64,000 nucleotides of DNA from Pseudomonas lurida (GTDB taxonomy: Bacteria; Pseudomonadota; Gammaproteobacteria; Pseudomonadales; Pseudomonadaceae): the NCBI RefSeq assembly GCF_002563895.1, contig NZ_PDJB01000001.1, forward strand, positions 3,269,501 through 3,333,500, in the 5' to 3' direction. Positions 1,058 through 64,000 of this stretch are shown here, in pieces. Below the pieces are notes generated by a model. It ran no database searches. It was not told where the DNA came from and worked only from the letters and a program-made list of their open reading frames with translations. Numbering within the stretch: the first letter of the stretch is position 1; every line of letters begins with the position of its first letter. A program made the translations under genes and the position numbers.

Positions 1058-3799
1058 TTACTTTGCCCGTCCTGGTGGCTCAGGTATTAGAGATGAATCG
1101 ATACCATCCTTGACCCAACTCGACCATTGTTTAAGGCTATTACCATTTCTTGATTTGGAGGCATCAGTCCAAGGCATTTGATATTCAGAAGAAAGGAAAT
1201 CACCTAGTTCCACTCCGGTAATGTTAGGATTTTGAGAAAGTTTTTCAATGCATTTTGCGATTGCGGGTTCATTTTTCGCTAAGGACCATACGGCGGCACT
1301 GCTTCCACCTAACTTATTAATAGAACCGAGATTTGGCTTTACTTCATTGTTTTCTTTGGTTATAAGATCAAAACGATCAAGGATGAAAATAGAATTCCTA
1401 TAACCTTTTTCTATTAAATCGTTAATCGTGAGGACGTTGGCTTTGAGAAGTTCGAGTGCCTCGCACACACTTGCCGGCGATGCCATAGCCGAAAATACTA
1501 CGCCTCGTTGCCTACTGCTACGCCTACCCAATTCTGCTGCGTCAGCTACGGATGCTCCTGAATCTTGTACTAAAAGCTTATTTCCAAGTTTGCTAAGAAA
1601 ACCTGTAACCATCAAGAGCTTTATTAGCCGGTTAGAGTAGATTTGCCAGGTTTTTTCACTATATTGGCCATTTTTTATGCATGTTTTGAGGGCTTTGGTT
1701 ATGTCGGAACTGCTTATCACTTTGCCGGCGCTTGATTTGTAAATGGCAATTTTTAAAGAGTGCTTGCCGAGCTTTTCTCGAAACCGCTCCATCATTGAGT
1801 ATTCTTTGTCCTCTAGATCTCGATGAAGCTTGAACTTTACGTTTTTTCGCTCTGCAATTCCGAACATAACTAAGTCGGCGCCGATGTTCCATACTGTACG
1901 TTCGTTAAGCCCTGAATCATTCGCAATGTCTATAGATTCGGTGAAATTTGTTTCATTCAGCTTGGTGGCAACTTTGTACATTGAAGAAAAGTCGGATGTG
2001 GGTATGTAATTAAATGGTATTACTGGGATGGCGCCAGTTAGTAAGTAGTCTTTAAATATATCCCAATAAATGTTGAGTCTTGATCCACTTTTAATGATTA
2101 ACCGTTTGTGAACCAAACTGTTCACAATCCCGACGCCTGATATTTCGATAATTTCTCCCCAGTCGGCTGGTGCTTTTTGAGCGACTAGCTTGAGGCATGA
2201 GTATTCTTGAGGGGTGAGATTTTCGATGTCGTTTTCAAATAGTCTGCTTACATCTAATTCGACTACTAAGGCCTCACCGTCGGTCTCTTTTTTCATGTTG
2301 TCGTAAAGGTTTATGCATAGCTTTTTTAGTAGCCAAGGAAAGCCTTGGCTACTATTGGAGATTTGATGTCTTATTTCGACAGGTATTTTTTGGTCTATTT
2401 CTTTTTCGAATGTAGTAATAGCTTTAGAGATTTCACCATTCAGAAAAACGTCTAGCTTATACACTCTTCGGTGATCAGATAGGTCATGCCACATGTGGTA
2501 TGCAGGATGATCATGCTGTGTCGTACTATCAGTCTTCCAAGCAAATCCTAACGCTAAGTTAGCTTTGTATGCGGCTACCTCTAGCATGAGATCCTTCGCT
2601 GCGTTGAAAATTCCGAAAAGTTCTGGTTTTGAGTATAACTCCTCAAATTGGTCGAAAACCAAGCAGACGATTTGTTTTTTCTGCTTTAGAGATTCCAAAT
2701 AACGAGCGATACTGCCAGATGCGAGAAGTGATGTTGGATCAGTCAGTTGAAGCTCTATATCGTCACCAAATCCTGCATCTTGTGCGCTTTTAAAACAGCT
2801 TAGCAGCGAAGATGCAATATAGGAGGGAGTTGCTGCGCCACGAATATCAATTGCGTAGGTAAAAAAGCGTTTTGCATAAAATTTATTTCTTGTCCTAGAT
2901 CTGAGCTTGGCGATTAGCGAGCTTTTCCCCAGCCCCGAATTTCCAGTTATTGCAAAGACGCGCGTGTCAACCTTGTTTTGCTGAATAAGGCTTAAGAAAT
3001 TAATTATGTCTTTTTGGGTGTTGTCTCTGCCGACGAAGTCTTGCGGCCGTGCGGGTCGATAATCATCCCACGAGTCTCCAGTTTGAACTTCTACAACTCT
3101 AGGAAGCTTACTGTTTTCGCTAGCTGGTATTGTTTCATTATTGATGTCTACCGTTAGATCATATTGTGCGAGGCTGCTATCAAGTCTTGAGATATTGAGT
3201 ATGGTTGCTTCATCAGTTACACGTTTTGACGTAACTGCGTTAAAAAGGAAGGCACCACATGGGGCTCCACCCTGTAGTGCATAGGCAACCCAAAATCGTC
3301 CGTATGCTGTAACTAGCAGGAACCAATCACCGAGCTTCTCCTCGCCTCCCGCAATTTCTATGGCCTCAGAAATTGGCTGTTTACATATAATTGAAGAACT
3401 TTGTAAAGAATCAATCACTAGTTTTGGTGTGTAGAAGCTAAGTTTAGAACCGAGATCTTGATTTTTTTCCCGCCATTGTTCTACAAATCCCTTCGCTTCT
3501 TTTCCTAGTTCGGCGGTGCTTATTAGCCATCCCTCAGCGTAATCATATGCTATTACTGTCCCTAATAGCTGGCGGAGGATAGGTGCTGAGATTTTTTCTT
3601 TTTGTGCTTTGCATTCTACATAGATGGTTTTTCCACTAACTCGATGCTTGCAAAGTAAGTCAAGCTCCGCGCCAGTAATTCGAATTTCTTCAATTACTTC
3701 ATAACCTTGAGCAATAAGCAAGTCATTTGCTAAGTTTTCTAACAGGTCACCCTTAGCTTTAGTGCTGTCGGTTTCTTTGCAAGCTACTTCGATTTTCAA
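1058..3799 (-). CDS. Mrr-like nuclease fused to a STAND/AAA NTPase, probable anti-phage protein
   Basis: A 913-residue protein. Residues about 15-140 form a restriction-endonuclease-like (Mrr-type PD-(D/E)xK) domain with Asp47 (GAELDLL) and Glu62-x-Lys64 (VECKAQ). Residues about 250-560 form a P-loop NTPase: a STAND-type entry (FVGRD), Walker A GNSGLGKSS near residue 290 and a Walker B-like FDQFEEL near residue 380. The remainder holds winged-helix-like segments. The C-terminal tail (RNGNSLKQWSSWV) resembles a short module seen at the end of some restriction-type proteins. The start is TTG at 3799, with AAGGAGAG at good spacing. Nuclease plus STAND NTPase is the layout of Avs-like and related phage sensors in which NTPase assembly activates the nuclease. 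The C-terminus shows no obvious TPR array, so it is not a plain Avs1-4 homologue. Its AT-rich sequence contrasts with its neighbours and suggests transfer. Confidence 0.8.
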   Translation of the reverse strand: MKIEVACKETDSTKAKGDLLENLANDLLIAQGYEVIEEIRITGAELDLLCKHRVSGKTIYVECKAQKEKISAPILRQLLGTVIAYDYAEGWLISTAELGKEAKGFVEQWREKNQDLGSKLSFYTPKLVIDSLQSSSIICKQPISEAIEIAGGEEKLGDWFLLVTAYGRFWVAYALQGGAPCGAFLFNAVTSKRVTDEATILNISRLDSSLAQYDLTVDINNETIPASENSKLPRVVEVQTGDSWDDYRPARPQDFVGRDNTQKDIINFLSLIQQNKVDTRVFAITGNSGLGKSSLIAKLRSRTRNKFYAKRFFTYAIDIRGAATPSYIASSLLSCFKSAQDAGFGDDIELQLTDPTSLLASGSIARYLESLKQKKQIVCLVFDQFEELYSKPELFGIFNAAKDLMLEVAAYKANLALGFAWKTDSTTQHDHPAYHMWHDLSDHRRVYKLDVFLNGEISKAITTFEKEIDQKIPVEIRHQISNSSQGFPWLLKKLCINLYDNMKKETDGEALVVELDVSRLFENDIENLTPQEYSCLKLVAQKAPADWGEIIEISGVGIVNSLVHKRLIIKSGSRLNIYWDIFKDYLLTGAIPVIPFNYIPTSDFSSMYKVATKLNETNFTESIDIANDSGLNERTVWNIGADLVMFGIAERKNVKFKLHRDLEDKEYSMMERFREKLGKHSLKIAIYKSSAGKVISSSDITKALKTCIKNGQYSEKTWQIYSNRLIKLLMVTGFLSKLGNKLLVQDSGASVADAAELGRRSSRQRGVVFSAMASPASVCEALELLKANVLTINDLIEKGYRNSIFILDRFDLITKENNEVKPNLGSINKLGGSSAAVWSLAKNEPAIAKCIEKLSQNPNITGVELGDFLSSEYQMPWTDASKSRNGNSLKQWSSWVKDGIDSSLIPEPPGRAK

Positions 3800-4169
3800 A
3801 AATCTCTCCTTAATTTTTTCGAGTGGCGACCGATATCGACTGGTAGGGATGATGACCTATGGCCACCATCTGAGCAAAGAAAAATTAGGTGCTCATTTCT
3901 CGTTCGAGAGGCGGGGTTGTGTTCTATAGAAATCTGTATGGGCCGCCATGGTGATTCGGAAACCAGAATCGTCGGCCCAAGAGTAGATTTCAGAGCTAAG
4001 AAAAATTGAATTCGTATCGGTAGTGAATCGCCCCGAGTTTCATAGATGCTTTCGAGCCTCAGGGATACCAGCCCAGTCCCAGTGAGACTGTCCGCCTCTG
4101 GCCGAAAGCAGTCATCCATACACACGCCTCCCCACCAACACCACCCCCCAGGCACTAGCCCCTCCCAAC
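3800..4169. other. Gene-free stretch upstream of the nuclease/STAND gene
   Basis: About 370 bases with the Shine-Dalgarno of the STAND gene at the left end and the repeat copy at 4090-4117 near the right. A 125-codon frame crosses the stretch on the minus strand but reads through the repeat, has no plausible protein character and is not called. The STAND promoter presumably lies here, but I cannot point to convincing -35/-10 boxes. Confidence 0.5.
4090..4117 (-). repeat. Inverted copy of the 28-bp repeat at 74-101
   Basis: Read on the minus strand it begins GGATGACTGCTTTCGGCC and matches bases 74-101 at 25 of 28 positions. The two copies face each other on either side of the AT-rich patch. 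Confidence 0.6.
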
Positions 4170-4718
4170 TCAACCAACATCACCCGAATTAATCAACGCC
4201 CTCAACACGTGATCCTCCCACACTCCAGCAATCTTCAAATACTCCCGTGCATACCCTTCCCGTTCGAACCCCAGCGACTCCAGAAGGCGTTCACTGCGGA
4301 CATTGCTGGGCAAGTGGTTGGCCATGATTCGGTGCAGGCCCATTTGTTCGAAGCAGTATCGGTTGGTGATCTGCAGTGTTTTTTTCATCAACCCCCGACC
4401 TTGGGCGGATTCGGCCAGGGAAAAGCCTAGATGACAGGCCTCAAAGGCACCCTTCACGATATTCGTGTAGCTGCATCGCCCCGCCACTTCGCCACTCCCT
4501 GGTTCGAGCAGTAGGAAAAAGATCGAAGTTCCCGCTTGCATGGCTTGCACCTGCTGCTCGACCCTGGCATTGGCGCTATCAAGGGTAAAATAATGCGCGT
4601 CCCTCAGGGGTTCCCAAGGCTGCAGATGGCTGCGGTTAGCCAGTTCGTAGCGGTTGAGCAGCTGGACATCATCACGGGTCAACGTTCGCAGGCAATAGCC
4701 TTCAACCGAATGAATCAT
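4170..4718 (-). CDS. RimJ/RimL-type GNAT N-acetyltransferase
   Basis: A 182-residue single-domain GNAT protein, the usual length for RimJ/RimL-like enzymes that transfer acetyl from acetyl-CoA to protein N-termini or small amines. The acetyl-CoA site is the segment [16 protein letters not shown] (about 101-116), a variant of the Q/RxxGxG/A loop. It is followed by the family-typical [26 protein letters not shown] block and the [19 protein letters not shown] tail seen in RimJ homologues. The substrate cannot be told from sequence; RimJ (ribosomal protein S5 acetylation) is the nearest well-known relative. It is the first ordinary high-GC gene right of the accessory patch. Confidence 0.85.
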
Positions 4719-4749
4719 AAGCGCTCCCGCGTGCCTGCTTCGGCAACGC

Positions 4750-5169
4750 TCAGTTAAACCAGCCCAGGTAAGTCATGCTTGCGGTGTTTTCTGGCACGCG
4801 CTGCAGCGGTTCGACCTGGGTAGACACTGAACGCCGGTCACCCCAGAGAGCGTTCTCCCCCACTAAAATGAAGTGCGTGAAGGCTGCCACCCCGCGCCTT
4901 ACCCGTTCTCTCTCGGATGGGCTGGTGATCTGCGAGAGGACCTCTTGCGGGTCGCTGGCGAGTTCGACGAAGTCCGCATCCATGTAGAACTCGAGTTCTT
5001 CCGCCAGGCGCCACGTTGGGTTGCACGCTTCCCATGCGCTGTATTCGGTGTCGGTTGCACTGTCGGACGGCGCTGGCTCCCACTGCTCGAAGGCAAACTG
5101 TTGTGCCTCGGCATCGCTGGCGAAGCTCGCTCCAAACAGGTGAAAGGCCCACGCAGTGTCTTGGGTCAT
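4750..5169 (-). CDS. Hypothetical protein coupled to the DUF6882 gene
   Basis: A 139-residue acidic protein starting [16 protein letters not shown] at 5169, where AAGGACAG is a good ribosome-binding site. The longer frame to 5241 is rejected because it runs into the upstream gene. Its ATG overlaps the stop of the 5166-5642 gene in an ATGA junction, so the two are translationally coupled. It is rich in Trp, Glu and Asp, with segments [20 protein letters not shown] and [20 protein letters not shown]. No signal peptide, transmembrane segment or recognised motif is visible. It may be cytosolic; the function is unknown. Confidence 0.7.
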
Positions 5170-5642
5170 TGAACTGTCCTTATCGACGTAATCGCCAGGA
5201 AGGTCGTCGGCCCATCGGGACCGGACGGCCCCCGATAACACCCTTGCGCCTGGAGGTGATGAACCGCTGCGGCGGTCAGTTCCCAGGCCATGCTTTCATC
5301 CTGAATGGCAAAGGCCTCGTCGTCGCCAAACAGGTCAACACCCGTGATGGCTTGAAGTTGCTTGAGTGACAGCGCGGCCTCGCGCAATGCCGGGTCGACG
5401 CTAGGGTTGCTCCAGGCCCATTTCCAGGTACTGAATTTACCCGAGTAGCTGCCAATGCTCACGACGTCTGCCACGACGGCCAGCCTGTCGTGGCTGTCAA
5501 AAAACTGGAGTACCCCCGTGGACTGTTCGAACCACCAGCGGGCCATTTCGCCCAGCCCGTAAACCCGGCTCAACTCCGTCTGTTTCAGTGACAGCTCATC
5601 CATCACTTGCGTCAAAAATGCTTCAAATTCATGGTCCGTCAT
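5166..5642 (-). CDS. DUF6882-like protein of unknown function
   Basis: A 158-residue protein starting MTDHEFEAFLTQVMDELSLK at 5642 behind AAGGAGACGTCC. The start used here is eight codons inside the longest frame because the Shine-Dalgarno fits this ATG. The mix of short strands and Trp-rich turns (GKFSTWKWAWSNPSVDP, YGLGEMARWWFEQ) resembles DUF6882 proteins, whose function is not known. The start overlaps the end of the upstream acetyltransferase (stop at 5629) and the stop overlaps the next start, giving a tight three-gene operon 6174-4750. The domain name is from recollection. Confidence 0.7.
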   Translation of the reverse strand: MTDHEFEAFLTQVMDELSLKQTELSRVYGLGEMARWWFEQSTGVLQFFDSHDRLAVVADVVSIGSYSGKFSTWKWAWSNPSVDPALREAALSLKQLQAITGVDLFGDDEAFAIQDESMAWELTAAAVHHLQAQGCYRGPSGPDGPTTFLAITSIRTVQ

Positions 5643-6174
5643 GGACGTCTCCTTGTTGTGCAGCAAAGGCCAACCGATACCTGACTTCCTCCAGTGTCAT
5701 GCCGCCCCTCACCAGGTTGCGCTCACTGCCTGCATCCGCGACACAGCCTGCCCGGCGATAAAACCGGATAGCCCTTTCATTACGGCTCAAGACCCAAAGC
5801 GTTAACCCCTGAAAACCAAGCGCCCTCAATGTCTGCAGGCCGGCCTTCCACAAGGCCAGCCCAGCGCCCGTTTGCCAATACCGGGCCAGCACATAGATGG
5901 CCATGACCTCGCCAGTATTTGCCCCGGCGGCATCTTCGTCACGGCTGGCGCCCACAGAGATCCAGCCGACGACGTGCTTATCCACCTGCGCGACCCACAC
6001 GTTGGACTCGTCCGATTCTATCGCGCGCACCCAAAAGGATTCACGCTGAGCCAGGGAGGCGTCCAGCGAGCTCAGGTATTGAGCAGGCATCAGGTCACGA
6101 TACGCGTCTTGCCAACTGCTGATATGCACCTGGGCAATGGCCTTTGCATCAGAGGGTAATGCCCTGCGGATCAT
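5629..6174 (-). CDS. GNAT family N-acetyltransferase
   Basis: A 181-residue GNAT protein. The N-terminus MIRRALPSDAKAIAQVHISSWQDAYRDLMP is typical of the PhnO/RimI-like group. The core strand GEVMAIYVLARYWQTGAGLALWKAGLQ holds the acetyl-CoA loop (here WQTGAG), followed by GLTLWVLSRNERAIRFYRRAGC, the usual beta5-alpha4 region with the Tyr that often acts as general acid. The substrate is unknown. It is the first gene of the three-gene minus-strand operon, and its 3' end overlaps the DUF6882-like gene by 14 bases. The promoter should lie between 6175 and about 6300. Confidence 0.85.
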   Translation of the reverse strand: MIRRALPSDAKAIAQVHISSWQDAYRDLMPAQYLSSLDASLAQRESFWVRAIESDESNVWVAQVDKHVVGWISVGASRDEDAAGANTGEVMAIYVLARYWQTGAGLALWKAGLQTLRALGFQGLTLWVLSRNERAIRFYRRAGCVADAGSERNLVRGGMTLEEVRYRLAFAAQQGDVHDGP

Positions 6175-6338
6175 TGAAGTATTCCTGCTTCGTACGCTGG
6201 ACGATAACGGTAGCGAATAAAGGTAACGGATTTATTTTTCCATTTAGCAATCCGTTTCCTTTTCAGGCTTCGAATAATTCGCTGTCTGCCAGCACACGCA
6301 GGCTGATATGTTTCGAGCCTTACGCAAAGGGAGGTGCC

Positions 6339-7071: not shown

Positions 7072-8559
7072 TCAGCATTGGACCCGCTGCAGATAGTCTT
7101 CCACGGCATCAATATGCGCTGAAGAAAACACCGCCCCAATATACCCATCAGGCCGCACCAGCACCCATTCGCCAATCGCCAGCCCATAGATGCGTTGAAA
7201 GTGCCCCTGGTCGTCGATCACGTCGCCGCCGGCCCCAACGGTATGCATCTGCACGCCAGGCCGCGCCTTGACTAAGTCACCCGCTACGCCGTAGCCCAGC
7301 AGTGTCCAGTGTGGTCCCTGAAAGAGGTTGAACACGCGCAGTGCCTGCCCAGCGGCACCCCGGACCGGCGCGTCCGGCGCCCGGTCGCCGGCGGCAACCC
7401 CGTTGCGCGCGGGGTGCTGCAACGCCAGCGAGGACTCGGGGTAGCCGATATCCAATTGATGCACTTCCCTGCCCCGCCGCAGTTCGCCGTGCTTCATCTC
7501 GCCCAGCAGCTTGGTGGACAAGCCCAGCACAGAGGCAGCGACCGGCCGGCGCTCTTCTTCGTAGGTGTCGAGCAAACCATCAGGCGCGCCCTGCACCACC
7601 GCCGCCAGCTTCCAGCCGAGGTTGTAGGCGTCCTGCACACTGGTATTGAGGCCCTGGCCACCGGTGGGCGGATGGATATGGGCGGCGTCCCCCACCAGCA
7701 GCACCCGGCCCAGGCGGTATTGGTCAGCCAAGCGTGCGTTCATGGTGTAGGCCGACGACCAGGTCACGCTGTGGACCTGGAGATCGGCGCGACCGGTGCG
7801 CTGGGCGAGCAGGTGCGTGAGCCCTTCGGCGCTGAAGTCGATGTCGACCTCCGGGGGGATCGGCGCCTGGATCTGAAACAGGTCGGTGCCGGCCAGCGGG
7901 CATATCGCAACCTGGCGCTGCTCATCACCTTCTCCGAAACGGTGCCAGGCATCACGTGTGAGGCCGCTAAGCACCACATCTGCCACCAGGGCCCGTACGC
8001 CAAGGGTCTTGCCGGGGAAGCCGATATCCAGCGCGTGCCTCACAAAGCTGCGACCGCCATCGGCCCCCACCAGCCAACGTGCACGAACGCTTTTTTCACC
8101 GGCCTTGCCGACCAGTCGCGCGGTGACGCCCTCGGCATCCTGTTCGAACCCCACCAGCTCACAACCAAACTCAGGCAGGTGGCCCAGTTCAAGCAAGCGC
8201 TCGCGCATCACCTGTTCGGTCAAAAACTGCGGCACCATCAACGGTTGCTGGTAAGGCTCAGCAGGTGTCGGGGCCTTGGATTGGGTGAATTCGACGTCGC
8301 GGTAGCTGCCATCGTCGCGGTAGCGCCGGTCAGTCGGATAGACTCCACCCACGGCCATCAACCGATCGAGAATCCCCAGGTCTTCGAAGACTTCCTGTGA
8401 CCTGGGCTGGATGCCCTTGCCGCGTGAGCCTTGGAAAGGCTGGGGGTTTTTTTCGATCAGACGGAAGGTGATACCCCTTCTCGCCAGGTCGATCGCCAAG
8501 GTCAAGCCGGCGGCACCGGCACCGCAAATCAGTACATCGACAGCGAATTGCGCTTTCAT
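7072..8559 (-). CDS. FAD-dependent aromatic monooxygenase (PHBH fold)
   Basis: A 495-residue class A flavoprotein hydroxylase. The Rossmann fingerprint GAGAAG lies at residues 12-17 in VDVLICGAGAAGLTLAI. The DG motif (WLVGADGGRSFVR, about residue 165) contacts both FAD and NADPH. The GD motif is in GRVLLVGDAAHIHPPTGG (about 285), followed by QGLNTSVQDAYNLGWKLA. A C-terminal thioredoxin-like extension of about 120 residues is typical of the pentachlorophenol-monooxygenase/MhpA-like subgroup, which hydroxylates phenolic rings. It is divergent from a MarR regulator, and the shared 50-base gap holds an operator close to both starts, so derepression by a phenolic ligand is likely. The substrate is unknown. 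Confidence 0.88.
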   Translation of the reverse strand: MKAQFAVDVLICGAGAAGLTLAIDLARRGITFRLIEKNPQPFQGSRGKGIQPRSQEVFEDLGILDRLMAVGGVYPTDRRYRDDGSYRDVEFTQSKAPTPAEPYQQPLMVPQFLTEQVMRERLLELGHLPEFGCELVGFEQDAEGVTARLVGKAGEKSVRARWLVGADGGRSFVRHALDIGFPGKTLGVRALVADVVLSGLTRDAWHRFGEGDEQRQVAICPLAGTDLFQIQAPIPPEVDIDFSAEGLTHLLAQRTGRADLQVHSVTWSSAYTMNARLADQYRLGRVLLVGDAAHIHPPTGGQGLNTSVQDAYNLGWKLAAVVQGAPDGLLDTYEEERRPVAASVLGLSTKLLGEMKHGELRRGREVHQLDIGYPESSLALQHPARNGVAAGDRAPDAPVRGAAGQALRVFNLFQGPHWTLLGYGVAGDLVKARPGVQMHTVGAGGDVIDDQGHFQRIYGLAIGEWVLVRPDGYIGAVFSSAHIDAVEDYLQRVQC

Positions 8560-8571
8560 AGTGGATCACCT

Positions 8572-8592
8572 ATATGTGCAATACGCACATAT
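8572..8592. promoter_or_regulatory. MarR operator 1 between monooxygenase and regulator
   Basis: Perfect inverted repeat ATATGTGC-AATAC-GCACATAT. It lies 12 bases upstream of the monooxygenase ATG and 17 bases before the regulator GTG, so binding would block both divergent genes. Confidence 0.75.
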
Positions 8593-8609
8593 TAAGAGAG
8601 GCCAACACC

Positions 8610-9107
8610 GTGTCAATTAAAAATGTGCAAAACGCACATATATCCGCCCAGTTGCGCGACCTGCATGGCTCTTTGGTTGAGATCGTGGGTGTGATGAACC
8701 GCCCACAACGCGACGAGGCAATGGTGCGCGAAGCCGGCATTTCCCTGGATCGCGCCCTGTTTCCGCTGCTGGTGCTGGTGGAGCGCCTGGGTCCGATCGG
8801 CGTGGTGGAACTGGCCGACCGCGTGGGCCGCGACTACACCACGGTAAGCCGGCAGGTGGCGAAGCTGGAAAGCCTGGGGCTGGTGGTGCGCCAGGCAAGC
8901 GCACTTGATCGCCGCGTGCGGGAGTCGGTGATTACCGAGAAAGGCAAGGCCATGACTGACCGTGTCGACGACGCGCGGGAGAGAATCGGTGTGTCGATCT
9001 TCTCGACGTGGGATGAGGGCGATTTCGACAACCTGGTGCGGCTGATGCGCAAGTTTGCCGAAGACATAAAGAATGATTCAGTGCGTGCGACCAAAGACAT
9101 CGCCTAA
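8610..9107 (+). CDS. MarR family transcriptional regulator
   Basis: A 165-residue MarR-type winged-helix dimeric repressor. The start is GTG 8610, preceded by AAGAGAGG; the in-frame ATG at 8574 is rejected because it lies inside operator 1. The recognition region is GVVELADRVGRDYTTVSRQVAKLESLGLVVRQ, with the wing DRRVRESVITEKGKAM. Two identical-type palindromes bracket the start, one in the promoter gap and one inside the first codons, which implies autorepression plus control of the divergent monooxygenase. MarR proteins of this kind usually respond to phenolic compounds, which fits the neighbouring hydroxylase. Confidence 0.88.
   Translation: MSIKNVQNAHISAQLRDLHGSLVEIVGVMNRPQRDEAMVREAGISLDRALFPLLVLVERLGPIGVVELADRVGRDYTTVSRQVAKLESLGLVVRQASALDRRVRESVITEKGKAMTDRVDDARERIGVSIFSTWDEGDFDNLVRLMRKFAEDIKNDSVRATKDIA
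8622..8640. promoter_or_regulatory. MarR operator 2 inside the 5' end of the regulator gene
   Basis: ATGTGC-AAAAC-GCACAT within codons 5-10 of the MarR gene. It is the same half-site and five-base spacer as operator 1, with centres 49 bases apart. A second site inside the coding region suggests cooperative binding or a roadblock to transcription. Confidence 0.7.
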
Positions 9108-56121: not shown

Positions 56122-56185
56122 CACGCTTGAGTACAACGACATTTCCCACATTGGCCATTCACTGCTGCCAAAATAGGTGTCTTGC

Positions 56186-57085
56186 ATGCACTTCGACCTG
56201 GCTGACCTGCGCCTGTTTATCCATATCGCCGAATCCCCCAGCCTGACCCAGGGTGCCAAGCGCGCGTTCCTCTCGCCAGCCGCCGCCAGTGCGCGGATCA
56301 AGGCCCTCGAAGGCCAACTCGACACCCGCCTGCTCTACCGCGACAGCCGTGGGGTGGAGATCACCCCGGCCGGTGAGCGCTTGCTGCACCATGCGCGGCT
56401 GATCATGCGCCAGGTGGACTATCTCAAGAGCGAGTTCACCCAGTACGGCGTGGATTCGGCCGGGCATATCCGCATCTTCGCCAATACCACGGCGGTCACC
56501 GAATTCTTGCCAGAGGTGCTGGCGGGCTTTCTGTCGCAGCGGCCCGGCGTGACCGTCGACCTGCAGGAACGCCTGTCCCGCGACATCGTGCGCGGCGTGC
56601 TCGATGGCACCAGCGACATGGGCATTATCGCCGGTCCCGTGGAGGCGGCGGGTTTGCAGGTGCTGCACTTCAGTACGGATGAATTGGTGCTGATGGTGCC
56701 GGTCGGTCATCCGCTGGCAGAGCAATCGTCGGTCACCCTGGAACAGACCCTCGCCTACCAGCATATCGGCCTGCATGAAGGCAGCACCCTGCTGAGTTTC
56801 TTGCGCGAACACGTGGAGCGACTGGGCAAGCACTTGTCCCTGCGCATCCAGGTGTCGAGCTTCGAGGCGATCTGCCGGATGGTCGAAGCCGGCGTGGGCA
56901 TTGGCATCATTCCCGAGTCGGCCGCCGTACGCCACAGCCGGACCATGCAATTGGTGGCGGTGAAACTCGATGAACCTTGGGCGATTCGCGAGCGCAGCAT
57001 CCTGGTGAGGGAGCTGGAGGCCTTGCCCGGCACCATTCGTGCGTTGATCGCCACGTTGATGCCGGACTCGGTCAGTGCAGGCTGA
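56186..57085 (+). CDS. LysR family regulator of the itaconate cluster
   Basis: A 299-residue LysR-type regulator. The start is ATG 56186 (MHFDLADLRLFIHIAESPSL) with AGGTG upstream; an in-frame GTG lies at 56177. The winged helix is LTQGAKRAFLSPAAASARIKALEGQLDTRLLYRDSRGVEITPAGERLL, and the effector domain has IRIFANTTAVTEFLPEVLAGFLSQRPGVTVDLQERLS and MVEAGVGIGIIPESAA. It is divergent from the hydratase-led operon and corresponds in position to the itaconate regulator (RipR/ItcR type) of P. aeruginosa. The stop overlaps the convergent bpX-type gene by 14 bases. Confidence 0.9.
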   Translation: MHFDLADLRLFIHIAESPSLTQGAKRAFLSPAAASARIKALEGQLDTRLLYRDSRGVEITPAGERLLHHARLIMRQVDYLKSEFTQYGVDSAGHIRIFANTTAVTEFLPEVLAGFLSQRPGVTVDLQERLSRDIVRGVLDGTSDMGIIAGPVEAAGLQVLHFSTDELVLMVPVGHPLAEQSSVTLEQTLAYQHIGLHEGSTLLSFLREHVERLGKHLSLRIQVSSFEAICRMVEAGVGIGIIPESAAVRHSRTMQLVAVKLDEPWAIRERSILVRELEALPGTIRALIATLMPDSVSAG

Positions 57086-59948
57086 GGTTGTGCTGGCGAG
57101 CGCCGTGCACCGTGATGTGGCTCAAGCGCCCCTGGTCATCGAATAGCAGCCAGCCATCCCCGGTACGACGGATATTCACCTCGTGGCGTGGCCAATGCAG
57201 TACGGCGCACACATGGTCACTGCCGCGATGGATAAAGTGCCAACGGGTGTCGCGTTCGCTGGCGATGTAGCCAAACACCAGCCACTCACCGTCGAGGGCG
57301 ATGCGCACCGGGTCGCCATCGAAGCGTCCTTCATCGCATTCCGTCAGGCGATAACCCTTGCGGTTACCGTCGACATCCAGGATCAACACCGGCTCTTCGT
57401 CGTCGCTGTACCTGATCAGGTACTCGACGGTTTGGTCGAGTACACAGAACAGCGCGTTGCTCTCCTGCGACTGCGTCGACGCCGGCTCGCGCCCCGCCAA
57501 CCGGCGCTCAGGCAAGCGGTAGTGCCAGCGCTCAACACCTTCACGCGGGTGATAGAGCCACAGGAACTCGCTGTGTTGATTAACTTTGAGGGCGTGAACC
57601 GAGCCGGGCAAGTCGCTCACGTGCCACAAGGTTTCAAAGCCACGATCTACGTCCACCACACGCAGTTGCCGGCCTTGGCCGATGGTCCAGGTGCTGCCGT
57701 CAAACTGGTCGGCGAACACATCCAGCACCAGCACGCCCAGGTCGGTGGCGGCGCGGTTGACCAAGTCCAACTTGCTGATACGCCACACGCTGTTGCGCCG
57801 GGTCAGTACCAGCGCCATCTGCCGGCCGTGGGCCAGGACAATCCGCTCGGCCGGCACGGCGAAATGGAACAGTGGCTTGCCGCTGCCATCCGCCACCACC
57901 GCTCCGGCCTCGCCCAATGCCACCAGGTAACGCTCGTCATCCAGCGGCACCGCATCGTAGAGCGGTCGGCTGCCCAGGGTCGGCGCGTCCCATTGCAACG
58001 CCTCGCCCACACGCACCAGCGAGCGGATGGCGGGACGCTTGAGCGCCTGGCCGGGCAAGTCCGCCTGCAATAATTTATCGCGGCTCATCTTCACCAGCGA
58101 TTGCAGTTGATTGAAGTTCAGCCCCCCGCGCCCACTGAGTTGGTCGGCAATCACCGCATGCACGGTTGCCCCCGCGAGCCAGGCCAGGGCAACCGTGTCA
58201 GACTTGTGCGCCAACAACGCATGCGCCAGGGCATCGCGCTCGGCGCAACGGGCGGGATCGTCACGCAACTGTTCGATCCATGGCCCATAAGCCTCCATGG
58301 TATGCGGCAGCAAAATCGCGCGCTTGACCAAGGCGCCAATCGCCAGGCCTCCACCGGCCGCTTCGGCATCGAGCAGCCATTGAGCGGCACGCGGGCGCTC
58401 TTGCGGCAAGCTCCACACCACCTCGACGGCTTGCAGCCACAGGCCCTTGGCGATCAGTGATTCGGCCCACTCCAGGCGCAAACGGTCGGCGAGCTGCGGC
58501 TGCCTTGCCTGGAGTAACACCACCGCATCGGCAAACGCATCATCACGACGCGCCACCAGCAACGCACGCTGCCAGTTTTCGGCCAGGCACAGCAGGCGCA
58601 CGATCACCGCCGACGGCATGTCCCAGGCCAGGGCCAGGTCCGCCGCCTGTTGGTAGCGCGCGTGCTTCTCCAGGTAGTCGAGGGCTTCGCGGCGTTCCTC
58701 GAGCAGTTCGGCCAGTACAAATACGGCTTCCTCGACACGGTTTTCGCGGGCCAGGCGCTCATAGGAGCGGCGATAGACCTGGCGCAGGTGTTCGGTAAGG
58801 CCCTCTTCGAACCGGTAGGTACGGCTGGGCCCGCGTTGCTGGCTGAGGGTCAGGTCCTGGCGCCGCTGCGGCGTCCCAAAGTTCTGCCCGGCATCCGGTT
58901 GCTGGCCGCCCAAGGGGATGGCATGGCGCAGGGCCTCAGCAAAATCACCGCTCTCGAACATCTCCAGCATGCGCTGCATATAGGCCGCCTGGCGTTTGCC
59001 GTACAGCCGGGAGAGTTTGGAATGCTCGGTCAGGCGGGTCAGCCAACGACGCCAGGCAGCCGGTTTGTGACGACCCGGCTGGGCCCGCTCAGGGATGCCT
59101 GGGTTGGACGGCGCTTGCGGTACTGCGTTGGCAGGCCGCCCACCCCGGCGCAGGTATTTGTTCAGCGCCGCCAGCAAGGCGGTGAACACGACGGCGCTGA
59201 CCAGCATGCCCAGGATCACGCCGCTGATGTCTTCGGTGGTCGCGGCGGAAACCGGTGTCAACGATTTGGATTGGCCCTGGGTGACCATCCAGATCAACCC
59301 TGCCACCAGGGCCACGGTGACGCCCAGTTTCAACGCCGGGTATTGTGCGGGTTCCTCGGTGACCCAAGGGCTCGATGTATTGGAAGGCGGTACTGGCGGT
59401 GCGGGGTGTTGACGCTCCAGCAAGGCCCGGATCACCCCCTCTTGCTCAGGGCTGACCGGCGCCAAGCCGCCCAGGATCTCGCGGACATCGGTGATGACCG
59501 GTTCAGGCAGAGACTGCGCGAGGGGCGCATGACAATCGAAAGTATCGAGCAAGGTGTAGGCGCGGGTATCCAGCCACAGGCCGGGTTCGAGCACCTCGGC
59601 GTCTCGCACCTGCAAAGCGTGCACCTGGCCGCCGCGTATCAGCCACAGGTCGGCGGTTGGCAACGCGCGCAGTTCCTCGCTGGCCAGCCGTGCCGAACAC
59701 AGGCCACGGCCCTGACGGACCAACGGCCAGCCCGCAAGCGCCTGGCAATCCACCGCGACAGGCGCGCTGAATTGCAGTAGATCGCCGTCGCCAAAACGGT
59801 AGGCAGCGGCCCCCCTGCGCCAGCACGCCAGGATCAGGCGAACCCGCTCCTGCGCCACGAAACGCTCGGCGGGCAACCACAGCCCGTCAATGGTCTGGTG
59901 CCCGGTCAATAAAGGCCGGCGGATCAATAGGGGTTCGTGTTCACGCAT
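57072..59948 (-). CDS. Large bpX6-like membrane and beta-propeller protein of a MoxR ternary system
   Basis: A 958-residue protein. About 1-195 is an N-terminal domain (MREHEPLLIRRPLLTGHQTI, WLPAERFVAQERVRLILACWRRG, DLWLIRGGQVHALQVRDAEVLEPGLWLDTR) that I match to the bpX6 type. Two membrane helices follow at about 203-223 and 241-262. About 330-640 looks like an alpha-solenoid (EALRHAIPLGG, YERLARENRVEEAVFVLAELLEERREALDYLEKHARYQQAADLALAW). About 650-958 is a repetitive beta-propeller with WDAPTLGSRPLYDAVPLDDERYLVALGEAGAVVAD-type blades. The arrangement fits the MoxR-vWA-beta-propeller ternary systems described from comparative genomics. The role is unknown; sensing or assembly at the inner membrane is inference. 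It overlaps the upstream gene by eight bases. Confidence 0.75.
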   Translation of the reverse strand: MREHEPLLIRRPLLTGHQTIDGLWLPAERFVAQERVRLILACWRRGAAAYRFGDGDLLQFSAPVAVDCQALAGWPLVRQGRGLCSARLASEELRALPTADLWLIRGGQVHALQVRDAEVLEPGLWLDTRAYTLLDTFDCHAPLAQSLPEPVITDVREILGGLAPVSPEQEGVIRALLERQHPAPPVPPSNTSSPWVTEEPAQYPALKLGVTVALVAGLIWMVTQGQSKSLTPVSAATTEDISGVILGMLVSAVVFTALLAALNKYLRRGGRPANAVPQAPSNPGIPERAQPGRHKPAAWRRWLTRLTEHSKLSRLYGKRQAAYMQRMLEMFESGDFAEALRHAIPLGGQQPDAGQNFGTPQRRQDLTLSQQRGPSRTYRFEEGLTEHLRQVYRRSYERLARENRVEEAVFVLAELLEERREALDYLEKHARYQQAADLALAWDMPSAVIVRLLCLAENWQRALLVARRDDAFADAVVLLQARQPQLADRLRLEWAESLIAKGLWLQAVEVVWSLPQERPRAAQWLLDAEAAGGGLAIGALVKRAILLPHTMEAYGPWIEQLRDDPARCAERDALAHALLAHKSDTVALAWLAGATVHAVIADQLSGRGGLNFNQLQSLVKMSRDKLLQADLPGQALKRPAIRSLVRVGEALQWDAPTLGSRPLYDAVPLDDERYLVALGEAGAVVADGSGKPLFHFAVPAERIVLAHGRQMALVLTRRNSVWRISKLDLVNRAATDLGVLVLDVFADQFDGSTWTIGQGRQLRVVDVDRGFETLWHVSDLPGSVHALKVNQHSEFLWLYHPREGVERWHYRLPERRLAGREPASTQSQESNALFCVLDQTVEYLIRYSDDEEPVLILDVDGNRKGYRLTECDEGRFDGDPVRIALDGEWLVFGYIASERDTRWHFIHRGSDHVCAVLHWPRHEVNIRRTGDGWLLFDDQGRLSHITVHGARQHNLSLH

Positions 59949-61746
59949 GGGCAGGCTCTTGTTTCAGGTCGCACATCAGTTGCAAACGCATGGCGCGCTC
60001 GGACACGTTGAACACCAGTAATTCCCGCGCGGATGTCAGCACCGCCACCAGGCCGCTCATGGGGCAGAAACTTGCACGGGCAATCGGTGCCGTGGTGGTG
60101 AACAGCGTCTGCTGCTGGCCTTCGGTGTACAGGCCAATGGTGTGCTGGTCGGGCCCCAGCAGTACCAGTGAATAGCGCTCCTGCGCGCCCACCTGGTGAT
60201 GCAGGCCGATGGCTTTCCAGCCGGAAGCCAGGTCGATCTGCGCCTTCTTGGCGGGGAAGCTGTCATGGGTCACCAGGCGCCAACTCTGCTGGCTGCCCTG
60301 GTGAGTAAGCAGTGCGCACCCCCCAAAGGCGTACTTCCAATGGGCGGTGCTGGCGAACAGCACCTGGCTGACACCGACAGCCGCACCGACGGCGTAGCCG
60401 GAGGTCTTCTCGCCATCGGCCCAGGCCGAATAAGCCACCACTTGCCCGCCCTCACTGCGGGCGTACACCAGTGTCAGGGCATCCACCTGCGCCAGCCCCA
60501 CGACATTGTTCGTCACCACGAAGTTTTCACCCCTGGGCGCGCCACCGGGACGTTGCCAGTAGCCGAGCTGGCCTTTCGTGTCCAGCAAATACAGGCGTTC
60601 GGACCGTTGGCCGCGCAGCCACACCGCAGGCAGAAAAGTCGCGGTGCCGGGAGGCAGGTGCATCTCTTCGCGCGTGGGCTTATTGGCGCAAACAAGGCTG
60701 GGAATGTTCCAGAAGTGCAGGACGTGGTGATCACCGAGCACCGCGCCGAGGCTGCGATAGTTGAATGTGGCGGCGAGCACGTGCTGGTCCTTGCCCCACA
60801 GTCGGCGTCGCACCTCGAGGGCTTTTTTCTGGTTCTTGTGGGGCAGCTTGATCACCACCATGCCGTGTTCGTCGAGCATGCGCAGCGCGACATAATTGCC
60901 TGAACCGGAGATGACCGGTGGCAGGGTCAATGCAACCCGAGCCACTCGCCCGGCAGCGGTCGGTGCGGGCGCGTGCACCGCATCATCGAACTGGCCCTTG
61001 AGCAAGCGCACCGCTTGCTGTTCGTCCGGCAGCGGCAGCGACACACGCCGCGCCTGCCCCGCCTGAAGGTCGAACCACAGGCTGCGCCCGTCCAGGTTGC
61101 GCGTAATCTGCACGCGATGGGTACAGTCCTTGGCATCAGTATGGGGCAGCCGCTGGCCGACGACCCAGCACTCACCCGCAGCCTGGTCGGCGAGCGATTC
61201 CCGCCATGCCAGCCAATGGTTGTCGCTCACGACCTCATAGGTACGCGCCTCGAGCAGGCGCTTGAGCTGTGCCGCTGAATCAAGCTCATGCAACACCGGC
61301 GCGCCTTGCAAAATGCCCCAGCGCAAGTGTGCACCCGCCTCCTCGGCACGCCGGGCCAACAACATCAACAGGGCCAGGTGCACCAGGCGCGCGGCCCCCA
61401 ATTGCAAAGGGCCCGCATCGAACAGCACCACAAGCAGGCGGTTCGCTTCACGCGCACGGTACTGCGGGGCAAGGAACATATGCTCACCGTCGACCGCGCG
61501 ACGCAGAAACTCGTCGGGCACTTCATCGGCCAGCAGCCATTCACTGGACAGCAACCGCTCATAGGGGCCGCGTCGGTGCAAGTCGCCCAGGCCGTCAGGC
61601 TCCGGCACATCGCCTTGGTGCACGCCACGCAGCGGTCCCAGCAGCGGGTTGAGACGGCCCAGCAAGTCGGCGAACAGGGGCAGGTGCTGCGGGGCAAACC
61701 ACTCCAGCCATTGCCGCCAGGGTTGCAGCGACTCAGGCAGTTGCAT
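59941..61746 (-). CDS. vWA-like/beta-propeller protein of a MoxR ternary system
   Basis: A 601-residue protein. An N-terminal region (about 1-85) leads to a vWA-like Rossmann segment at about 95-200 (NRLLVVLFDAGPLQLGAARLVHLALLMLLARRAEEAGAHLRWGILQG). The metal-ion MIDAS motif DxSxS is replaced by DAGPL, so it probably does not bind metal in the normal way. The C-terminal 350 residues form a beta-propeller with blades such as HVLHFWNIPSLVCANKP, RLYLLDTKGQLGYWQRPGG and KYAFGGCALLTHQGSQQSWRLVTHDS. It overlaps both flanking genes (14 and 8 bases). It should be the vWA partner of the MoxR ATPase in this system. Confidence 0.75.
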   Translation of the reverse strand: MQLPESLQPWRQWLEWFAPQHLPLFADLLGRLNPLLGPLRGVHQGDVPEPDGLGDLHRRGPYERLLSSEWLLADEVPDEFLRRAVDGEHMFLAPQYRAREANRLLVVLFDAGPLQLGAARLVHLALLMLLARRAEEAGAHLRWGILQGAPVLHELDSAAQLKRLLEARTYEVVSDNHWLAWRESLADQAAGECWVVGQRLPHTDAKDCTHRVQITRNLDGRSLWFDLQAGQARRVSLPLPDEQQAVRLLKGQFDDAVHAPAPTAAGRVARVALTLPPVISGSGNYVALRMLDEHGMVVIKLPHKNQKKALEVRRRLWGKDQHVLAATFNYRSLGAVLGDHHVLHFWNIPSLVCANKPTREEMHLPPGTATFLPAVWLRGQRSERLYLLDTKGQLGYWQRPGGAPRGENFVVTNNVVGLAQVDALTLVYARSEGGQVVAYSAWADGEKTSGYAVGAAVGVSQVLFASTAHWKYAFGGCALLTHQGSQQSWRLVTHDSFPAKKAQIDLASGWKAIGLHHQVGAQERYSLVLLGPDQHTIGLYTEGQQQTLFTTTAPIARASFCPMSGLVAVLTSARELLVFNVSERAMRLQLMCDLKQEPAHA

Positions 61747-62179
61747 GGGTGGCTCCCCAATACGCGGCGATACGCTGCAGATGCGCTGGCGAAACCGCCA
61801 GCAAACGGTCCAGCGGAATCACGGCCTGTGGGGTACGCCACACCAGCAAGGGCGCACGCTTGAAGCGCGCCGACATGGCATGGCCGAGCAAGTCCTCTGG
61901 CACATCCGGTTCCCAACTGGTCGGCAACCAGAGCCCTGGGGAACTGGCGCTGGGGGCTGCGTACGCCACGCCATCGACCCACGGCAGATCAGCCGGCACG
62001 CCGGTGACCACCAGCACATCACCATTGGCAGTGGCTTGCAGCCGTGCCGCATGGTCGGCCGCAAGCAACGTAAGGCGAGCGTGCAGACGCCGCGCAGCAT
62101 CGCCCCAGGCGACCGCGGCTTGAGCCTGGGCGGGCACCTGCCGCGAACGCCAGGCCCAGGGTTGGCTCGGCGTGCTCAT
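61733..62179 (-). CDS. Small bpX5-like protein of a MoxR ternary system
   Basis: A 148-residue protein (MSTPSQPWAWRSRQVPAQAQ start) with a likely helical N-terminus and then strands around LQATANGDVLVVTGVPADLPWVDGVAYAAP, SSPGLWLPTSWEPDVPEDLLGHAM and APLLVWRTPQAVIPLDRLLAVSPAHLQRIAAYWG. Length and position match the small bpX-type component (probably bpX5) of MoxR ternary systems, by recollection rather than search. It starts in an ATGA overlap with the moxR stop and ends inside the vWA-like gene, so it is produced in step with both. Confidence 0.65.
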   Translation of the reverse strand: MSTPSQPWAWRSRQVPAQAQAAVAWGDAARRLHARLTLLAADHAARLQATANGDVLVVTGVPADLPWVDGVAYAAPSASSPGLWLPTSWEPDVPEDLLGHAMSARFKRAPLLVWRTPQAVIPLDRLLAVSPAHLQRIAAYWGATHATA

Positions 62180-63297
62180 TCGGCAGGTGTCAGCAGACGG
62201 GTGAGTTGCCCCCGCGCGTGCTGCAACGGCTCGGGCATGGTCTGGCTGTTGAAATTGGCATCGATCTCGCGCAACAGACCTTCGAGTGCGGTACTGGTCG
62301 GCGGCTCGGTGCGGGCCAGGTAGTCTTCGGCGGTTTCCAGCAAGCGGTTCAAGCGTGACATCGGTTGCAGCGTGGCCTCTTCCACCGCGCTGAACAGGTG
62401 GCTGTTGCTGGAGGCGGCAAACAGATCGCGCAACACTTCACGGCCGTGTTGCTGGGTGGCCTGGGTCGGCAACACATACAGCAGCGGCCACACGTCGGCG
62501 TCACTGGCTTGCAGCCGGCCACTGAGCAATGCGGCGGCGGCAATCAGGCGCTGGGATTTGACGATGCGTCGGTCCGACAATTGGATGCCGGCTTCACGCA
62601 GGCGGCGAATCGCCTGGGCCAGGGTTGGGCGCACCGCACTCAGGTCGACGTGTTTCAGGGCCTGGCCGAGGGTGTCCAGTTGCGCAAGGCCGAGCAACTG
62701 TTGCACCGGGCGCTGTTCCGACTGCCAGCCGCCGGCCAGCATGGCTTCCAACTGATTGTCCGGCACCGACTCGACAAACAGGTGCAACAGGAACCGGTCG
62801 CCGAACGCCGCCAGTGCTTCATCGTCCGGCAGGCCATTGGCCGCGCCCACGCACACACGCAGCGGGCATTGCACCTGGGTATGGCCACGGCGGAAACGGC
62901 GCTCGTTGAGGACGCCCAGCAAGGTGTTGAGGATCGCGGTGGAACCCAGGAACACTTCGTCGAGAAACACGATATCGGCTTCCGGCAGCATGCCACTGAC
63001 ATCAGTTTCCACCGTGCCTTCGCGCAGCTTTTTCAGGTCTACCGCGCCAAACAGTTCGGAGGGCTCGGTGAAACGTCCGAGCAGGTATTCAAAGTAGCGC
63101 CCCCCCATGGACTGCGCGACACGCCGTACCACCGCGCTCTTAGCGGTGCCGGGTGGCCCGATCACCAGGATGTGCTCCTGGGCCACGGCCGCCAGTACGA
63201 TCAATTCGGCGAGTTGCTCGCGCCCCACCAAGCCTTCGGTAGCGGCACGCACAGCATGACGGATGTGCGCGGCAGCGCCCTGCAACTGAGCAATCAT
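62176..63297 (-). CDS. moxR: MoxR family AAA+ ATPase
   Basis: A 373-residue AAA+ protein. The start is ATG 63297 (MIAQLQGAAAHIRHAVRAATEGLVGREQLAELIVLAAVA) with AGGGAAG upstream. Walker A is HILVIGPPGTAKSAVVRRV (about 43-60), and a MoxR-type pore/helix-2 insert region YFEYLLGRFTEPSELFGAVDLKKL follows. Walker B is DIVFLDEVFLGSTAILNTLLGVLNERRFRRG, and sensor 1 is CVGAANGLPDD. The C-terminal lid is helical. MoxR ATPases usually act as chaperones that fit or remodel a vWA partner, here the 59941-61746 product. It is the first gene of a fully overlapping four-gene operon. Confidence 0.92.
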   Translation of the reverse strand: MIAQLQGAAAHIRHAVRAATEGLVGREQLAELIVLAAVAQEHILVIGPPGTAKSAVVRRVAQSMGGRYFEYLLGRFTEPSELFGAVDLKKLREGTVETDVSGMLPEADIVFLDEVFLGSTAILNTLLGVLNERRFRRGHTQVQCPLRVCVGAANGLPDDEALAAFGDRFLLHLFVESVPDNQLEAMLAGGWQSEQRPVQQLLGLAQLDTLGQALKHVDLSAVRPTLAQAIRRLREAGIQLSDRRIVKSQRLIAAAALLSGRLQASDADVWPLLYVLPTQATQQHGREVLRDLFAASSNSHLFSAVEEATLQPMSRLNRLLETAEDYLARTEPPTSTALEGLLREIDANFNSQTMPEPLQHARGQLTRLLTPAE

Positions 63298-63388
63298 GGG
63301 TGTCTTCCCTGAAACCAAAGCGGAGAATCTTGCCTGAGGCTAAGGTATTAGCAAAGCGTTGTTACACACTCACCTCAGGAGTCAGCCC

Positions 63389-63877: not shown

Positions 63878-64000
63878 CAACCTGGCCCGCTGATCGTGCA
63901 TGAGCCTTGCTCGGCAAGGCTGCCGGAGACCCAAGGTGACTACAGCGCGACCATCCGCTACCTGCCGATAGCGTGTGAAACATGCACTCACTGATTCAGA

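Follow-up and report, generated by a model that had tools for sequence, protein, structure and literature searches.

In a 64,000-nucleotide stretch of the Pseudomonas lurida genome (contig NZ_PDJB01000001.1, positions 3,269,501 to 3,333,500; hereafter, the window), four genes of the minus strand (57072-63297) encode a MoxR-type AAA+ ATPase, a small bpX5 protein, a vWA-like adapter with a beta-propeller, and a large bpX6 protein. Judged by its profile matches, this set is a member of the published MoxR-vWA-beta-propeller ternary systems, of the bpX5/bpX6 type, because the bpMoxR, bpX5 and bpX6 profiles all score far above their cut-offs. The products most likely constitute an ATP-driven remodelling complex, for which a role in conflict (i.e., defence) or in stress protection is plausible. 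The explanation that we favour, and to which we assign about an even chance of being right, is that of a self-contained four-gene cassette whose products work as an ATP-driven sensor and remodeller, protecting against attack by phages or rival bacteria. New here are the cassette behaviour of the set at one chromosomal site, a replacement motif found throughout the adapter family, and membrane helices that turn out not to be universal.

A preliminary description of this DNA, made from its sequence alone, had reported four minus-strand genes with overlapping ends (overlaps of 4, ATGA, then 14 and 8 bases) and had recognized in them a ternary system of this kind; coordinates, strand and overlaps were all as described, and the profile scores agree with the membership. 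The first gene (62176..63297; all features of the operon given below lie on the same strand) encodes 373 residues and matches PF20030 (bpMoxR) with 301.8 bits, in addition to AAA_5 and AAA_lid_8. The Pfam cut-off is 27 bits for this profile and for the two that follow. The gene starts with ATG, and a TTG 21 bases farther upstream is likewise open. The ATPase site is intact, as had been claimed, with a P-loop GPPGTAKS at residue 47, present in 67 of the 70 MoxR proteins compared, and a Walker B motif IVFLDEVFL at residue 109. The second gene (61733..62179) specifies the bpX5 protein, whose 148 residues match PF19921 with 173.7 bits and contain no other known domain and, according to a hydropathy scan, no hydrophobic segment. 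The last gene (57072..59948) is an open reading frame for 958 residues, of which residues 9-174 (59427..59924) form the N-terminal bpX6 domain (PF19922, 186 bits; also found in a whole-genome search). Thus, the comparison with Pfam profiles that the preliminary description had proposed identified three of the components, whereas no vWA domain was detected and the 601-residue product of the third gene (59941..61746) gave no match. By eye, we had suspected that bpX5 was homologous to the N-terminal bpX6 domain; the idea was rejected when hhalign returned 0.6%.

Of 298 Pseudomonas genomes, 20 contained bpX6 and the same 20 contained bpX5; bpX6 occurred in 3 of 398 genomes drawn from the phylum, two of the three (the window genome included) being Pseudomonas. 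The four genes stood in the same order in all 19 other Pseudomonas loci, albeit with split frames in one of them (L026; comparison loci are designated by L numbers). They were also complete and in order at 70 of 73 loci from named genomes, the other three ending at contig ends. These 73 loci belong to Pseudomonas, Variovorax, Xanthomonas, Lysobacter, Massilia, Gilliamella and other genera; since 15 of the 19 Pseudomonas loci recur, as identical DNA, among the named ones, the survey comprises 77 distinct loci besides the window. Such a recurrent arrangement means that the four open reading frames are not chance frames, and a survey of other pseudomonads, as had been suggested, confirmed that the operon is conserved as a unit. 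Visibly broken frames were noticed in L095 (from the same genome as L026) and in L126. Two Massilia loci contained 1.4-1.8 kb of extra intergenic DNA, between the adapter and bpX6 genes in L131 (~7218-8977) and between the bpX5 and adapter genes in L132 (~4835-6271).

The structure of the adapter was predicted on P0001, in which 599 of the 601 residues are those of the window protein (66 sequences, mean predicted local distance difference test (pLDDT) score 82.4). The model comprises N-terminal helices, a small alpha/beta segment (residues 104-249; 61000..61437) and, as the preliminary description had anticipated, a beta-propeller (residues 267-596; 59959..60948). In a fold search with this model, the propeller matched full WD40 propellers in the PDB over 276 residues; the top Foldseek match of the 601-residue protein was 6nd4.

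In a true vWA domain, the alpha/beta segment would carry the DxSxS sequence of the metal-ion-dependent adhesion site (MIDAS). In the window adapter, DAGPL occupies that position, within FDAGPLQLG; the segment standing in for DxSxS is DAGPLQLGAARL (residues 110-121; 61384..61419). The preliminary description had pointed out this substitution and interpreted it as a loss of the MIDAS. The DxSxS sequence is indeed replaced, but this is no peculiarity of the window genome: FDxGPxQxGxxRL is the norm of the family. Among 72 aligned adapters, the D is found in 71 (the other has a gap), the G in 70, the P in 69 and the Q in 70, while the later G, R and L are present in all 72; one row of the alignment is gapped across the first part of the motif. 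On the strength of this alignment, FDxGPxQxGxxRL is a conserved, family-wide replacement of the MIDAS, not decay in one genome. A subset of such vWA domains is described by Kaur et al. (2020, eLife 9:e52696), in the passages concerning them, as missing one or both aspartates, whereas the first aspartate is retained in the family considered here.

The bpX6 protein was modelled on P0121 (946 of 958 residues as in the window protein; 56 sequences, mean pLDDT 79.3). The prediction shows a beta-rich N-terminal domain, a linker with two helices (206-224 and 240-267; 59148..59333), a helical solenoid (296-630; 58059..59063) and a second beta-propeller (651-956; 57081..57998), in keeping with the two membrane helices, solenoid and propeller attributed to it beforehand. 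Propellers were among the matches in fold searches with both whole predicted models, the adapter and the bpX6 protein, and a profile comparison did not support homology between the two propellers (0.2%). Both membrane-type helices fall in a mostly low-confidence stretch of the model. Hydropathy placed two segments there, at 205-223 and 244-262 (values 1.94 and 2.65), using a scan that over-calls, as it also flagged residues 438-456, which lie within the modelled solenoid, as well as one segment each in the MoxR and adapter proteins. The linker is hypervariable: in a 57-row alignment, its mean identity to the window protein is 27.7%, whereas the bpX6 domain reaches 54.6%, the solenoid 65.5% and the propeller 49.4%.

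When we looked for hydrophobic peaks in the linkers of 69 bpX6 proteins of at least 850 residues, two peaks were present in 38, one in 10 and none in 21. By this measure, most Pseudomonas members possess two membrane-type helices. On a quick bpX6 tree (with a midpoint root that serves for drawing only), the distribution of the two-helix state versus the rest required three changes. The pair was absent from all 20 rows of one clade (no peak in 18, one peak in 2), composed of Lysobacter, Xanthomonas, Stenotrophomonas, Pseudoxanthomonas, Tahibacter and other relatives. The deepest group of the tree, seven rows from Massilia and others, had one peak in six cases and none in the seventh, and the pair was separately absent in Achromobacter L104 and Pseudomonas L129. 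Hence, the proposal that the largest component is tethered to the membrane agrees with what is usual in Pseudomonas but does not extend to the sister clade; because the same four-gene set exists without the helix pair, the four proteins can probably do their work without being tethered through the linker helices.

These data also bear on the main rival explanation, which we consider a real but lesser possibility: a chaperone for inner-membrane complexes or lipids, akin to RavA-ViaA, that would serve in quality control or in adaptation to stress and have no part in conflict. Among solved structures, that of RavA comes closest to the MoxR protein (E = 2.9e-40, residues 14-269), and the helix pair of most Pseudomonas members would suit a function at the inner membrane, where RavA and ViaA act in Escherichia coli according to the relevant passages of PMC9489729. 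The NCBIfam model for RavA recognizes the window protein as well, with 166.8 bits over residues 9-269 only; this value is so far under the cut-off of 681 bits, however, that the protein is not RavA. Moreover, none of its partners bears a MIDAS, a large clade dispenses with the helix pair, and an accessory distribution (20 of 298 genomes) would be unusual for a housekeeping function.

The set behaves as an inserted unit. The bpX6 gene and a LysR regulator gene (lysR, 56177-57085) converge and overlap at their 3' ends, and the divergent neighbour upstream of the MoxR gene belongs, according to Pfam, to the GFA family (gfa). In 14 relatives, lysR and gfa are direct neighbours, with 25-135 bases between the aligned parts, and six further lysR loci have no gfa nearby; the 20 loci were not a random sample, 14 having been chosen for apparent lysR-gfa adjacency and six for a lysR without a listed gfa partner. 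The cassette sits beside lysR in the window genome and in five others. These five occupied alleles have the lysR-side junction and the region upstream of MoxR in common with the window, and in one of the genomes (G017) no gfa was found. Comparison with the 14 empty-site junctions and the five other occupied alleles gives an approximate extent of 57065..63375 for the insert. Elsewhere in Pseudomonas, the cassette occupies at least one other shared context (L028, L029, L031 and L032) and several unshared ones. No integrase was noticed at the cassette, although no profile search aimed at integrases was made.

Just upstream of the MoxR gene, a 33-base element (63325..63357), possibly the promoter of the cassette, is conserved with 0-2 mismatches at the lysR site, in six of the named loci. 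The anchor for the comparison could be located in 48 of 70 loci; outside the lysR site, four of them (L088, L075, L076 and L089) have a looser version with 9-11 mismatches, whereas none of 48 shuffled stretches came below 12. The element does not match the sigma-70 consensus.

A lysR tree of six occupied and 13 empty alleles requires five changes in cassette presence (between 4 and 6 among bootstrap trees); shuffled labels need no more, and the hypothesis that the occupied alleles form a single clade was rejected (approximately unbiased test, p-AU = 3.2e-5). The likeliest reading of this pattern, we infer, is a single insertion event, after which the cassette was exchanged or lost via recombination in the flanking genes. 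One could instead imagine a conserved operon with some other, non-protective function, whose patchiness reflects lineage loss only. The shared occupied junction in six genomes would fit one old insertion with subsequent losses, and at least two operons (L095 and L126) are visibly broken. On the other hand, the occupied lysR alleles are not one clade and need about five changes among 19 genomes, the cassette lies at several other sites, and all four genes are kept in 70 of the 73 named loci, so that loss alone appears improbable.

Returning to the protective cassette, we envisage that the MoxR protein would form an AAA+ ring gripping the vWA-like adapter, and that the adapter propeller, bpX5 and the solenoid-propeller bpX6 protein would make up one assembly, located in pseudomonads at the inner membrane. 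With a partner or ligand on the propellers or the bpX domains, ATP hydrolysis would remodel the adapter-bpX5-bpX6 assembly. The role of such a machine would be protection against attack, by a phage or by a rival bacterium, rather than that of a housekeeping chaperone; we deem protection most likely since the set is accessory and contains no recognizable toxin or nuclease domain. Support for a conflict role also comes from the patchy distribution, from the listing of the same four genes in a plasticity region of Pseudomonas syringae (in the part of PMC9677677 cited below), and from the precedent of Arc2 (PA4317-23) in P. aeruginosa, which PMC8926400 presents, where it treats this locus, as a major defence factor against a rival's toxin, ColA.

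The Arc2 precedent suggests a narrower explanation, namely a resistance module directed against toxins of rival bacteria and not against phages. Many of the carrier genera are known from soil and plants, an ecology that counts in its favour. However, the likeness to Arc2 is by description only, and the word 'propeller' is absent from the main text of PMC8926400. We regard this variant as possible, on much the same footing as the chaperone; being a special case of the protective cassette, it overlaps with it in probability. A bolder elaboration, which strikes us as rather doubtful, would portray the system as an effector-free, membrane-optional AAA+ machine for immunity or repair. In it, FDxGPxQxGxxRL would replace the metal-binding grip and dock the MoxR ring, the two WD40-type propellers would read the threat, and the genes would pass between species without an integrase, by way of recombination in core genes on either side.

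Several observations count against a mobile, protective vWA-type system as outlined above. Only 2 of the 16 inner branches of the lysR tree have good support; taken by themselves, they require just two changes, leaving the number of cassette moves unsure. In tblastn searches, the bpX6 protein found no match in either the phage or the plasmid collection; a distant blastn search of the plasmids with the whole operon DNA retrieved the MoxR part alone, in five records. The four proteins showed no recognizable effector domain (toxin or nuclease) in the Pfam search. No system model of PADLOC fits the four-gene set: with the 2023 models, the MoxR protein weakly matched three ATPase models (best E = 1.5e-4), and the other three proteins matched none at E ≤ 1. 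Among the literature matches listed for bpX5, bpX6, bpMoxR or MoxR-vWA-propeller systems, where subscription papers are mostly outside coverage, we found no experiment on a bpX5 or bpX6 protein; these matches include a paper on diversity-generating retroelements (PMC10907252, in the part concerned).

Nor is there a clear enrichment of defence genes around the operon. We compared the nearest frame on each side of 70 named MoxR-bearing loci (137 frames, 129 plus 8 of the longest, each taken as the longest open frame without gene calling) with defence models. About 9 of the 137 flanking frames matched at E ≤ 1e-10, as opposed to none of 44 control genes from the window, 40 of which came out of a set of 48 frames; this control is too small to claim enrichment. 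The matches were to IetA/TRIP13-type AAA proteins (three, one of them at Lysobacter L116) and to RtcR, SoFic, PDC-S24, Csa3, PDC-S33 and SduA (one each), several being generic; this tally counts same-named models as one protein and gives models, not members.

The identification of the second component is similarly affected. Pfam found no vWA family in 45 diverse members of the adapter family even at E ≤ 5, and hhalign comparisons of the family with two vWA alignments returned 0.8% and 1.1%, against 82.7% for the positive control, i.e., the two vWA alignments with each other. The short alignments produced by hhalign nonetheless match VVLFDAGP to the first strand and the metal motif of genuine vWA domains, and the predicted order of elements in residues 104-249 (strand-helix-strand-helices-strand) is compatible with such a domain. 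The degenerate vWA segment of the preliminary description is consequently compatible with the predicted order of elements but finds no backing in Pfam or hhalign. We therefore call the component vWA-like, a label that derives from its predicted secondary-structure order and from the published classification.

The surroundings of the operon vary among carriers. At some Pseudomonas loci, a recurrent divergent neighbour of ~600 residues is a beta-lactamase-family hydrolase, situated beside MipA and a histidine kinase, which we take as ordinary context. The genes upstream of the Massilia operons had been thought to encode AAA proteins; this was wrong, as they code for penicillin-binding proteins or RelA/SpoT. 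Specifically, L131, L132 and L135 have, upstream of MoxR, a gene for a penicillin-binding protein that combines transglycosylase and transpeptidase domains; the distance is 89 bases in L131. In one Xanthomonas and two Lysobacter loci (L110, L118 and L127), frames of ~640 residues occur divergently upstream of MoxR (~3450-5400, minus strand). These have no Pfam match at E ≤ 0.001 and may be non-coding antisense frames. In the window, shortly after the GFA gene, a plus-strand frame of 1401 residues starts at 63975 and runs past the right edge, continuing through L044:476-4681; it is followed, on the opposite strand, by genes for a histidine kinase and a response regulator. Elsewhere in the window genome, the bpMoxR profile weakly matched three places: G000:C1:3374616-3375137 (L022, 63.3 bits), 5055581-5056105 (L023, 43.6 bits) and 2172481-2172900 (L024, 22 bits, under the cut-off). 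L022 and L023 lie within ~3 kb of VWA_2 domains and, from this proximity, are probably other MoxR-vWA pairs.

The near-invariant replacement of the MIDAS and the non-universal helices narrow the possible mechanisms. The window copy is intact and compact (6.2 kb, with its conserved upstream element) and stands at a site that is naturally filled or empty among relatives; for these reasons, it suits a direct test of the conflict hypothesis.

Among the known systems, RavA-ViaA of E. coli, a MoxR-vWA pair of the inner membrane in PMC9489729, is similar in its RavA-type MoxR ATPase. It differs in that the window ATPase stays under the cut-off for full-length RavA and that its partner has DxGPxQ and no MIDAS; the RavA-ViaA passages of that paper do not mention propellers, bpX5 or bpX6. 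Arc2 likewise combines a MoxR-like ATPase with a protein described as containing a VWF domain, yet it consists of seven named genes (arc2A-G). In P. syringae clade 2b-a, ravA, bpX5, '6ND4' and bpX6 have been listed together in the plastic region RGP_32 (PMC9677677, 2022), and the part of the paper that lists them gives them as clade-specific gene groups, without comparison of sites or functions.

The closest counterpart is vWA-MoxR subsystem 4 of Kaur et al., the ternary systems proper, whose passages predict a role in conflict, as the preliminary description had correctly stated, and propose MoxR-driven remodelling for MoxR-vWA pairs. The correspondence with these passages includes a MoxR with the GxxxTAKS P-loop variant (their section 22), a second protein with a C-terminal propeller (a divergent vWA type in their text, vWA-like here), and a third protein with a membrane segment, helical repeats and a C-terminal propeller. 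Both descriptions also involve no conventional effector and an occurrence in Pseudomonas and Xanthomonas. There are also differences from the published text. In the set studied here, the domain that precedes the membrane segment is fairly well conserved, the hypervariable part being the linker; the propeller predicted for the adapter corresponds to full WD40 propellers, rather than having 'about four blades'; and a fourth gene, bpX5, accompanies the others at every locus not cut before it (71 of 73 named loci and 20 of 20 in Pseudomonas).

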